This document shows, piece after piece, positions 20,357-28,166 of a stretch of DNA of 64,000 nucleotides. The stretch comes from Thermincola carboxydiphila (GTDB taxonomy: Bacteria; Bacillota; Thermincolia; Thermincolales; UBA2595), in NCBI GenBank assembly GCA_016841045.1, contig JAENZX010000001.1, positions 329,541-393,540 on the forward strand, in the 5' to 3' direction. The notes beneath the pieces are model-generated. The model made no database searches. It was not told the origin of the DNA and was given only the letters and a program-made list of their open reading frames with translations. The translations under genes and the position numbers were made by a program. Each line of letters opens with the position of its first letter. Positions within the stretch are counted from its first letter, which is position 1.

Positions 20357-20761
20357 TTATCCTTCCCAGGCTCTCATTCCGCCCTTCACATTGTAGACTT
20401 GCTTGTATCCATTCTCACTAAGGAATTGACCTGCTGCCTCGCCCATTGGTCCCATATGACAAACCAATATAATCCTCTTATCCTTATCCAATTGAGAGTA
20501 TTTCTTTTCAAAGTCGGCGAAAGGAACAAGGACCGCTCCCTTAATATGTCCTTTCTCAAACAAGATAGGTTCTCTCAAATCCACGATAATTGTATTTTCG
20601 TCCAGTCCAGCATCCAGCTCAGTTTTCAATTGGTTTACAGTTATAAACTTGACTCCGGTAGTTGCAGTATCACCACCGGCAGTATTTTTTTCATTACAGC
20701 CTGTTATCAACACTGCCCATATACCTAAAGCCAGAATCAACAATGCCTTTTTCTTCAACAA
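20357..20761 (-). CDS. Rhodanese-domain lipoprotein
   Basis: 134 residues. Lipoprotein signal with lipobox LITGC (Cys about 22), then a single rhodanese domain (VDLREPILFEKGHIKGAVLVP) with the active-site loop CHMGPMG, Cys near 101. A surface-anchored sulfur or selenium transferase, or a redox protein. Last gene of the eleven-gene operon, 30 bases after the MerT-like gene. The Lgt encoded two genes upstream would attach its lipid. Confidence 0.88.
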   Translation of the reverse strand: MLKKKALLILALGIWAVLITGCNEKNTAGGDTATTGVKFITVNQLKTELDAGLDENTIIVDLREPILFEKGHIKGAVLVPFADFEKKYSQLDKDKRIILVCHMGPMGEAAGQFLSENGYKQVYNVKGGMRAWEG

Positions 20762-20791
20762 AATAACCCCCGTGGAAGTTCGTAATAGTTA

Positions 20792-21106
20792 TCAAAAATA
20801 TCCTATAGAATATAGAAAATATGCAAAGCTAGCAAAAGTTAACCCCGTCGATATCCACAATATAATTTTTTGCTTTCGATGCATAATAGACGATTTTTTC
20901 CAAGAAATCCAATGAGCTACTGTCAGGAAAACGACGCTTGAAGCTATAAACCACCATTGATACTTGGCAAAAAACGTTAAAGTTGAAAGCATAGATCCAC
21001 CCAGACCGAGCGAAATCACTAATATAGGAAGCACTCAGGTTAGGCAGGCAAAGGTTGCCGAAACTATCGTTAAACCCTGCGTAAACTTGTCCTTCCAAGA
21101 ATTCAT
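20792..21106 (-). CDS. MerT-like membrane protein with CxxU, candidate selenoprotein
   Basis: 104 residues if the TGA at 21035-21037 is read as selenocysteine. ATG 21106 has a perfect AGGAGGGTGACCC upstream, yet without read-through it would give only 23 residues. In frame: KFTQGLTIVSATFACLT-U-VLPILVISLGLGGS, then two more membrane segments. Mercuric-transport (MerT) proteins have paired cysteines at this place in the first helix; here they are Cys21 and Sec24 (CxxU). A SECIS-like hairpin with a GGUCU loop follows. Gene callers would report only the 80-residue C-terminal part from a GTG without a ribosome site. Ligand unknown: Hg, Cu or another thiophilic metal, or thiol redox. Confidence 0.88.
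20994..21017 (-). promoter_or_regulatory. SECIS-like hairpin of the MerT-like gene
   Basis: Minus strand: GATT, bulged T, CGCTC, loop GGTCT, GGGTG, GATC. The loop starts 28 bases after the UGA. A bulged U below a GGUC-containing loop is the arrangement known from the E. coli fdhF element that SelB recognises. Confidence 0.8.
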
Positions 21107-21176
21107 GGGTCACCCTCCTAAAATGCCAACCTAAATGCTTCTTGCTTCCAAATAAGCAGGCCCAGGCTGCATATCA

Positions 21177-21956
21177 TTATTTTTGTCGGAGCGACTTGGA
21201 CTTCAACATATATTTATACACAATTAATATACAAGCACCTGCCAGAATCAACAAACTGGAAATCTGGGCAGCTTTTAAACCGGGAGCAATCAATAGACTG
21301 TCAGCTCTCCAAAATTCAAGGGTAAACCTAAGCAAAGAGTACAGTGCAAAGTACATTAGTGCCACAAAACCCCTAAAAGGTCTGTGCTTAAGTAGAAAAA
21401 TCAATAAACCGAAAATCAACAGGTCACCAGCCGCTTCCATCAGTTCCGCCGGAATTAGTGGAACTGCACCAAAGGCATTAAAGGCTGGAGTTCCTGGTTT
21501 ATACACTACCCCAAACCACGAATTCGCCGGAATTCCGTAAGCATCACCATTTAAAAAACAGCCGATTCGACCGATCGCTTGACCCAATATTAAGCCAGGG
21601 GCAAGCACATCTGCAAATTGCCAAAAATTCAACTTGTGACGTCTAACAAACCAAAGTGTAACAATTAACCCTGCGGCAACCCCACCCTGGATTGACAACC
21701 CACCATTCCAAAACTCTAAAGCAGATAATGGATTATTCTCAAAGTTGGACCATGAAAAAATAATCTCCCATACACGGGCACCTAAGATTCCAGCCACTAC
21801 GGCATATAGTACATAATCCAAAATGATTTCGCCGTCAAGACCTTCTTTTTCTGCAAGCTTTTTGGACACCAGGGTAGCTACGAGTATTCCAAGCGCAACC
21901 ATTAGTCCCCATGCTCTAATATGAAATTCACCAATGCTGAACAAATGAGGAAACAT
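21177..21956 (-). CDS. lgt: Prolipoprotein diacylglyceryl transferase
   Basis: 259 residues, about seven membrane helices. Family signature region GRIGCFLNGDAYG with the conserved Arg and Gly, the early HIRAWGLMVALGI segment and GGLSIQGGV. Transfers diacylglycerol to the lipobox Cys of prolipoproteins. AAAGGGGTGATTGC precedes the ATG. Its place in an operon with two lipoproteins suggests a dedicated lipidation enzyme, although it could also be the cell's only Lgt. Confidence 0.96.
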   Translation of the reverse strand: MFPHLFSIGEFHIRAWGLMVALGILVATLVSKKLAEKEGLDGEIILDYVLYAVVAGILGARVWEIIFSWSNFENNPLSALEFWNGGLSIQGGVAAGLIVTLWFVRRHKLNFWQFADVLAPGLILGQAIGRIGCFLNGDAYGIPANSWFGVVYKPGTPAFNAFGAVPLIPAELMEAAGDLLIFGLLIFLLKHRPFRGFVALMYFALYSLLRFTLEFWRADSLLIAPGLKAAQISSLLILAGACILIVYKYMLKSKSLRQK

Positions 21957-21990
21957 GCAATCACCCCTTTAATGGTTTCATTATCATGAA

Positions 21991-27975: not shown

Positions 27976-28008
27976 TGGGTATCCCACCTTAAATATTATA
28001 TCGATCAA

Positions 28009-28038
28009 TAAAAAAAGGGCAGTTTAACGTCTTGCCCG
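28009..28038 (-). terminator. Leader terminator ahead of the operon
   Basis: Minus strand GGGCA / TGCCC stem (extended by flanking CCC) around AGACGTTAAAC, followed by TTTTTTTATT. It lies between the short leader ORF and the first structural gene, so it acts as an attenuator if transcription starts at 28130. Confidence 0.75.
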
Positions 28039-28047
28039 GGACTGGAT

Positions 28048-28104
28048 TCAGCAGCCCTCTTTGCAATGGGCTGTTTCCCTGAGCATCCAGTGTTTTGTAA
28101 ACAT
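28048..28104 (-). CDS. Short leader peptide ORF, 18 codons
   Basis: ATG 28104 with AAAGGGGGCGG upstream, ending TGA at 28048: MFTKHWMLRETAHCKEGC. Two His and two Cys in 18 residues, just downstream of the promoter and just upstream of an intrinsic terminator. A CAGCCC / GGGCTG hairpin lies inside it. Could be a metal-responsive or cysteine-responsive leader peptide, or a fortuitous frame. Confidence 0.5.
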   Translation of the reverse strand: MFTKHWMLRETAHCKEGC

Positions 28105-28136
28105 ATGTTCCGCCCCCTTTCTCATGCTATACTCTC

Positions 28137-28166
28137 AATATAGGGTACCCACCTACCCATTGTCAA
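28137..28166 (-). promoter_or_regulatory. Operon promoter with CsoR-box-like spacer
   Basis: Minus strand TTGACA (28161-28166), 18 bases, TATATT (28137-28142). The spacer is ATGGGTAGGTGGGTACCC, a G-tract with the GGGTACCC palindrome, which resembles CsoR operators. Likely target of the CsoR paralogue at 25187-25507. Confidence 0.7.

Follow-up and report, generated by a model that had tools for sequence, protein, structure and literature searches.

A conserved leader peptide and RNA element at the head of a candidate soft-metal response operon in Thermincola carboxydiphila

A 64,000-nucleotide stretch of the Thermincola carboxydiphila genome (GenBank assembly GCA_016841045.1, contig JAENZX010000001.1, positions 329,541–393,540 of the forward strand; hereafter the window) contains a block of 12 genes, all on the minus strand (28008–19991, as delimited by the list of open reading frames (ORFs) and family scans). 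On balance, and with limited confidence, we favor the interpretation that this block is an envelope operon that responds to copper(I) or a different soft metal, with movable sub-modules as its building blocks and two levels of control. Ahead of its first gene lie a short leader ORF and an RNA element, which were absent from the initial annotation of this region and which also head copA and other copper-type genes elsewhere in the phylum. The features of the block and its flanks, in the order of the minus strand, are as follows:

28166–28137, minus strand: promoter TTGACA-18-TATATT (11 of 12 matches), with its −35 box at 28166
28160–28143, minus strand: CsoR-like palindrome GGGTAGGTGGGTACCC in the promoter spacer, a putative operator
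28104–28010, minus strand: leader ORF and RNA element together, between promoter and g0
28104–28048, minus strand: leader ORF of 18 amino acids, MFTKHWMLRETAHCKEGC, ending AHCKEGC, with the Shine-Dalgarno-like sequence AAAGGGGG upstream
28042–28017, minus strand: RNA element of 26 nt, GTCCCGGGCAAGACGTTAAACTGCCC, 8 nt after the leader ORF and followed by seven T residues at 28016–28010
27975–27502, minus strand: g0, small membrane protein containing ACCLHH (start read from the sequence; no family found in Pfam)
27459–26881, minus strand: g1, lipoprotein (LTGC) with an immunoglobulin-like (Ig-like) beta-sandwich and conserved His residues (no Pfam match)
26829–26200, minus strand: g2, ICMT-family membrane methyltransferase (PF04140, 35.1 bits, cut-off 24)
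26150–25560, minus strand: g3, FtrD-like protein (formerly DUF2318; PF10080, 73.8 bits) with one transmembrane helix and two CxxC motifs, both read from the sequence
25507–25187, minus strand: g4, CsoR-family repressor (PF02583, 95.8 bits)
25095–24682, minus strand: g5, lone receiver domain (PF00072, 84.9 bits)
24625–24380, minus strand: g6, DUF2933 membrane protein with LLCPLMHLFMM (PF11666, 36.4 bits)
24300–21991, minus strand: g7, SpeE-like Rossmann domain flanked by two blocks of transmembrane helices (Spermine_synth PF01564, 29.7 bits)
21956–21177, minus strand: g8, Lgt with motif GRIGCFLNGDAYG (PF01790, 216.5 bits; TIGR00544, 172 bits, cut-off 118.9)
21106–20792, minus strand: g9, MerT-like selenoprotein, assigned from MerT homology and selenocysteine (Sec) machinery, with its UGA (Sec) at 21037–21035
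20761–20357, minus strand: g10, rhodanese lipoprotein (ITGC; PF00581, 76.4 bits)
20341–19991, minus strand: g11, second CsoR-family repressor (PF02583, 96.6 bits; listed start TTG, with an ATG possible at 20311)
19962–19939, minus strand: intrinsic terminator closing the block, from a terminator scan
19770–17218, minus strand: copA, with two HMA domains, preceded by its own promoter (19873–19845) and a G/C palindrome

We favor copper or another soft metal because the block holds two CsoR genes and is followed by copA, because genes for CopA, CsoR and DUF2933 are linked to g7 relatives, and because the leader heads copA.

The leader recurs well beyond this locus. A DNA search with a 191-base leader query found matches in 9 of 101 genomes, including two in the T. 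carboxydiphila genome itself, and a consensus pattern of the element, allowing up to three mismatches, found 48 sites, distributed over 37 of the 398 phylum genomes and 26 of 266 genera, compared with one site for the reversed pattern used as a control. Adding one further locus (L179) and removing L229, which repeats L201, gave the 49 sites that we read; L205 is nearly identical to L206. At 45 of the 49, the element is preceded by a peptide of the form (K/R)(R/H)(W/Y/F)(M/L)LRxx(A/T)HCxxG(C/H). The terminal (A/T)HCxxG(C/H) is present in all 45 peptides, and its His, its Cys and the following Gly are invariant in the 44 distinct sequences. The placement of the peptide is similarly constrained: when scored with a looser motif (n = 46), its spacing to the element is 8 nt in 39 cases, 9 nt in four, 12 nt in one and 23 nt in two. 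Because differences between the leader ORFs concentrate at the third codon position (3685, 3420 and 8321 at the first, second and third positions, respectively), and because a start codon and Shine-Dalgarno sequence are found at 42 of the 45, the leader ORF is probably translated and under purifying selection. Reading the UGA that ends the window's leader ORF as a Sec codon was rejected, as other sites have UAG or read on. One of the four element sites lacking the peptide (L184) precedes g0–g1.

Within the element, GUC could pair with GAC and GGGCA with UGCCC, in the order of an H-type pseudoknot. Scans of the block, eight leader loci and eight viral loci against Rfam 15 (E up to 5 or 10) returned no family at the element. 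The leader was not found in plasmid records, and named phage records gave four short matches only. A literature search returned no description of this leader or of an Lgt/CsoR operon, and the accessible portions of papers on non-coding RNAs held no copper motif.

The genes lying directly behind the leader on the same strand connect it to the block. At 21 of the 49 sites, spread over 11 of the 26 genera, these are copA (10 sites), g0–g1 (four), Lgt/DUF2933 (three), ICMT (two) or the MerT-like selenoprotein gene (MerT-Se; two), whereas we estimate from roughly 15 such genes per 4 Mb that chance would give ~0.1 site. In the two MerT-Se cases (genomes G013 and G059), the coordinates place the gene 36 nt after the element. 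Homologs of g0 stand directly behind the element in L183, L184 and L228, with 59–84 nt between the element and alignable g0 sequence. An intrinsic terminator intervenes between element and gene at nine of the 10 copA sites and two of the three Lgt sites. The second leader copy in the T. carboxydiphila genome (G000:C24:14126-14213, L176) precedes a gene for a YhcN/YlaJ-type sporulation lipoprotein.

The RNA element appears to serve more widely, as it is also present in viral contigs. A looser pattern matched at least 120 stretches in a viral collection, and the peptide was absent at all 82 of the viral sites read (contigs L230–L309), many of which immediately follow a stop codon and precede the next gene. 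Because these viral copies occur without the peptide, the copper link, if any, would reside in the peptide.

As for the block itself, the initial annotation had described eleven genes on one strand, and the ORF list and family scans confirmed both their number and their order, on the minus strand. Its extent needed revision: a twelfth gene, the second csoR, lies 15 nt downstream of the rhodanese gene and is part of the block, the terminator lies beyond it, and 28166, where the annotation had placed one end, is the −35 box. The first 11 genes are separated by gaps of 30–91 nt, with no strong terminator between them. Taken together, the promoter-like sites of the scan were no more numerous than in shuffled sequences (36 versus 33.1 ± 6.3). 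Three minus-strand sites reached 11 of 12 matches, at 28166 (the block), 20341 (the second csoR) and 19873 (copA). Because the second of these (20341–20312) lies inside the block, an internal transcript start before the second csoR is possible.

Conservation of the neighborhood was followed through relatives of g7. They occur in 26 of the 398 phylum genomes and in many named genomes, from which we assembled 45 loci (23 chosen by us from 80 named records, 21 others and the window; a single record probably underlies both L054 and L096). Within 9 kb of g7, these loci contain DUF2933 (20 loci), Lgt (19), g1 (17), CopA (14), CsoR (9) and ICMT (4), together with proteins that we take, from their sequences, to be SHOCT (13), CcdA-like (12) and YHS proteins. 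Across all 80 named records, the counts were 10 for copA, nine for Lgt and six each for g1, DUF2933 and ICMT. Among the matches listed for these records (L088–L131), the families fell in L088–L119, apart from single ICMT matches in L114, L116 and L125, and an FtrD-like gene was near g7 only in L125. Three loci (L094, L101 and L119) each hold g1, DUF2933, g7, Lgt and ICMT as well as a copA-like match, and ICMT relatives 51–56% identical to g2 are near g7 in these three and in L088; the one in L094, seen by BLAST, is additional to the four ICMT loci counted above. In a Spirochaetes metagenome genome, g0-like and g1-like domains are fused in one 305-amino-acid protein (L091:8675-9592). No g7 match was found in the eight other genomes of the family to which this genome belongs, although the leader with g0–g1 is present in this family (L183 and L228). 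Near g7 there are also genes that we presume, again from their sequences, to encode a cysteine synthase and a cystathionine/O-acetylhomoserine-type pyridoxal phosphate enzyme, at 10 of the 45 loci each (L048, L051, L052, L056, L057, L060 and L065, among others).

Lack of conservation of the neighbors, which would have refuted the reading of the initial annotation, was thus not observed for the core set. The single self-contained pathway of 11 genes that the annotation envisaged is nevertheless not supported: no other locus seen has the whole set, and the sub-modules occur alone or in other mixtures. Three sets recur in Bacillota: SpeE-like, DUF2933, g1, Lgt and ICMT, often with CopA or CsoR; MerT-Se with rhodanese; and g0–g1. 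The block is real, but it is a mix of sub-modules and not one conserved unit.

Sequence and structure comparisons constrain what several of the proteins might do. Both CsoR-family proteins contain the C, H and C that we take to be the ligand positions of CsoR, and for each the top NCBIfam match is copper RicR, below its cut-off. The g7 model (mean predicted local distance difference test score (pLDDT) of 85) matches the fold of the spermidine synthase SpeE (1uir, E 3.8e-9), with which the family shares the Rossmann domain and an invariant GGG nucleotide loop. Nonetheless, g7 differs from SpeE in having membrane domains on both sides and in lacking DxxD(P/S), which was absent from all 22 of the g7 sequences; we presume DxxDP to be the catalytic motif of spermidine synthase. 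A SpeE function for g7 was rejected on this ground, as aminopropyl transfer is unlikely; the protein may instead perform another S-adenosylmethionine-type (SAM-type) transfer. The g1 model (mean pLDDT 70) yielded an Ig-like sandwich only (best Foldseek match 3uc2, E 3.2e-3), and the structure searches listed no functional relative, with VIA Z up to 8.4, to Ig domains of the major histocompatibility complex; His153 is invariant in the eight aligned g1 sequences. The genome has three Lgt genes including g8, which has its GRIGCFLNGDAYG motif in common with one of the other two; Lgt proteins near g7 in other loci mostly read GR(I/V/L)GCD. The Asn of the GRxGN motif, which we take to be N146 of E. 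coli, is replaced by Cys in g8, as it is in the relatives listed and in the genome's two other Lgt proteins, and this difference may simply be a clade-specific residue. The earlier suggestion that the block acts on lipoproteins is weak with respect to g1: seven of the 17 g1 loci have Lgt with a g1 that lacks a lipobox, which leaves Lgt as the lipidator of g1 unsupported. Lipobox-containing g1 and Lgt together were counted at three loci, which are really two in that L054 and L096 look like one record.

The initial annotation had also called Sec in the MerT-like protein, and this call was borne out. Although the Pfam MerT score of g9 is below the cut-off (23.8 versus 32.9), it is the best match, and the best NCBIfam match, merT_RC607 (1.6e-10), is likewise below its cut-off. 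The genome encodes tRNA-Sec (73.9 bits, cut-off 47) and SelB (359.9, cut-off 242.25). MerT-like relatives occur in 22 of the 398 phylum genomes, with exactly one TGA in 28 of 29 matches and a TAA in the other, and the TGA falls at residue 24 in all 19 aligned loci, including that of the window (20 loci were fetched and L362 was left out). Judged by this alignment and machinery, the in-frame UGA of g9 reads as selenocysteine. SelB was above the cut-off in every one of the 21 other MerT-Se carriers, as well as in 15 of 20 genomes lacking MerT-Se, a modest contrast because Sec use is common in this genome set. A folding-energy test for Sec insertion sequences was weak (mean z −0.89 over 19 loci), with GGUCU-like hairpin loops in several. 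Of 19 other loci, 13 have a rhodanese relative beside MerT-Se; three genomes, all from a single genus, have Lgt upstream of MerT-Se in the same gene order as in the window. Two more MerT-like genes are present in the T. carboxydiphila genome (G000:C3:75299-75565 and G000:C49:35104-35349), one with an in-frame TGA and the other with a TAA.

How might such an operon work? CsoR would bind the palindrome within the promoter and be released on binding Cu(I), as suggested by its family and the position of the site. Polymerase would then transcribe the leader, comprising the 18-codon ORF ending AHCKEGC and the pseudoknot-type element that runs into a terminator-like U tract. A ribosome pausing at the HCxxG(C/H) codons, depending on metal or thiol state or the supply of Cys-tRNA, would touch the element and set the balance between termination and read-through, such that the leader would act as a metal- or thiol-responsive attenuator. 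The products of the block would act at the membrane or outside it: metal would be bound or handed on by g1, g6 and g0; MerT-Se would pair with the rhodanese lipoprotein, as transporter and extracytoplasmic partner, in the place of MerT/MerP; Lgt would lipidate the rhodanese; g2 and the SpeE-like g7 would be SAM-type membrane transferases; and the neighboring CopA would export cytoplasmic metal. More tentatively, and at somewhat less than an even chance of being right, the leader may define a new class of attenuator, in which an 18-codon upstream ORF (uORF) ending AHCxxG(C/H), 8 nt before a 26-nt H-type pseudoknot shared with many phages, detects Cu(I) or the thiol state as it is being translated and defines a regulon of copA, g0–g1, ICMT, Lgt/DUF2933 and MerT-Se across Bacillota.

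Known systems resemble parts of this arrangement. The accessible portions of the reports on CruR (PMC9426467) and CutF (PMC9973294) describe uORFs with a conserved Cys or metal motif that head copper genes, with control by the nascent peptide together with mRNA structure or termination. Of the two, CruR belongs to the DUF2946 family and CutF is exported, with a stalling-like motif at its C terminus, whereas the leader described here comprises 18 codons without a signal peptide and closes with its motif, 8 nt ahead of a compact element. The trait they have in common, a Cys-motif uORF heading copper-type genes, is found at the 21 sites listed above, with the proviso that L184 among them has the element without the peptide. 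The block shares CsoR-family repressors, CopA and G/C palindromes at promoters with CsoR-CopA copper operons, from which it differs in lacking copZ and in having ten further membrane, envelope or regulatory genes and a leader peptide. The initial annotation had held that the combination matched no named system, which is half right in that some sub-combinations are in print. CopA-cupredoxin-DUF2933-ICMT clusters of Alteromonas, Vibrio and others (PMC8478169) likewise have DUF2933 and ICMT genes by a copper ATPase, but these are Gram-negative clusters with a MerR-type regulator, and the rows seen of that paper contain no SpeE-like, Lgt, MerT-Se or g0–g1 genes. The copper-induced lit2-lgt2 operon of Listeria and Enterococcus, as reported in PMC8275575, includes an additional Lgt gene that is transcribed together with genes for copper resistance; it differs in that no Lit was seen in the block and in that g8 has the motif given above, with g7-linked Lgt mostly of the GRIGCD type. 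A MerT selenoprotein (ABB16073.1; NCBIfam NF045683), like g9 a MerT-like membrane protein with Sec, is in the table seen of a review (PMC9312934). The partner of g9 is a rhodanese lipoprotein, not MerP, and the gene sits in a CsoR operon.

Several observations weigh against the soft-metal operon and its attenuator. The majority of leader sites (28 of 49) head other genes, or none on that strand, the others including genes for YhcN, an HtrA-type protease, BON, a polysaccharide deacetylase, a glycosyltransferase, RibD, DUF362, DUF763 and RarA, because of which the copper specificity of the leader is unproven. Seven of the 10 copA sites are from one genus, copA in the window lacks a leader of this kind, and CsoR-like palindromes were upstream of only three of the 24 leaders inspected: that of the window, that of L190 and that of L223, a DUF2933/Lgt leader preceded by TACCCC..GGGGGTA. 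Copies of the element that lack the peptide are frequent in viral contigs. Covariation is thin: stem S1 varies once (G-C to G-U) and S2 has a few G-U, U-A and A-U changes, and because the stems vary so little, the pseudoknot remains a proposal. Finally, the whole gene set was seen in this genome only. A rather unlikely alternative to attenuation is that the leader is an independent gene, encoding a small metal-binding peptide or a small RNA and often located near copper genes. Many sites do close with a terminator of their own and have divergent or unrelated genes beyond it, but the elements of the window and L184 pass into a U tract immediately ahead of g0, and the distances to g0 (59–84 nt) and MerT-Se (36 nt) resemble those of a 5′ untranslated region.

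With respect to the block, the lack of a second locus with the whole set and the occurrence of its sub-modules apart would fit copper genes gathered by transfer that act singly and share only a promoter. We consider this unlikely: the core families remain grouped in different families of Bacillota, L091 encodes g0 and g1 as a single fused protein, and several of the genes stand behind the same leader. Less likely than that is a role in selenium or sulfur handling, in which the rhodanese and MerT-Se import sulfane sulfur or selenium, the CsoR-family proteins sense persulfide (CstR type) and the methyltransferases make volatile products. The pairing of rhodanese with MerT-Se at most other loci, the sulfur-metabolism genes near g7 and the Sec of the MerT-like protein itself are what such a role would predict, whereas the C-H-C ligand set of both CsoR proteins and their best match to copper RicR (below cut-off), the CopA, DUF2933, YHS and SHOCT neighbors, and the leader at copA point the other way. 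An operon of novel composition that confers resistance to mercury or organomercury seems very unlikely: Sec is a strong Hg ligand and merT_RC607 the best NCBIfam match of g9, but the family scans found no merA, merB, merP or merR among the block genes, and the MerT-Se partner is a rhodanese. The soft-metal interpretation agrees with that part of the initial annotation, itself partly supported, which had proposed metal handling at or outside the membrane with CsoR; family matches and the g7-linked neighbors speak for it. If correct, it would provide a sequence by which a soft-metal regulon of Bacillota could be recognized, assign the orphan families g0, g1, DUF2933, the membrane SpeE-like protein and MerT-Se/rhodanese to one physiological response, and identify a very small uORF/pseudoknot switch that is easy to test. 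The element in viral contigs poses the separate question of what recognizes it.

The L190 leader, together with its CsoR-box-like palindrome AAATACCCTATAAGGGTATTT, is upstream of the gene for an HtrA-type protease, which is not a known copper gene; the L192 leader is near-identical to it. Adjoining copA in the window, a Met/His-rich protein with a signal-like N terminus and a weak GerD-like match only (16061–16645, plus strand) is possibly a copper-binding protein. Beyond copA, a minus-strand cluster (12126–15826) contains two P-loop ATPases with ferredoxin-like inserts, three NifX/NifB-like cofactor-domain proteins and a DUF134 protein; PF02579 and PF02001 were matched in the family scan, and the other assignments were made by eye.

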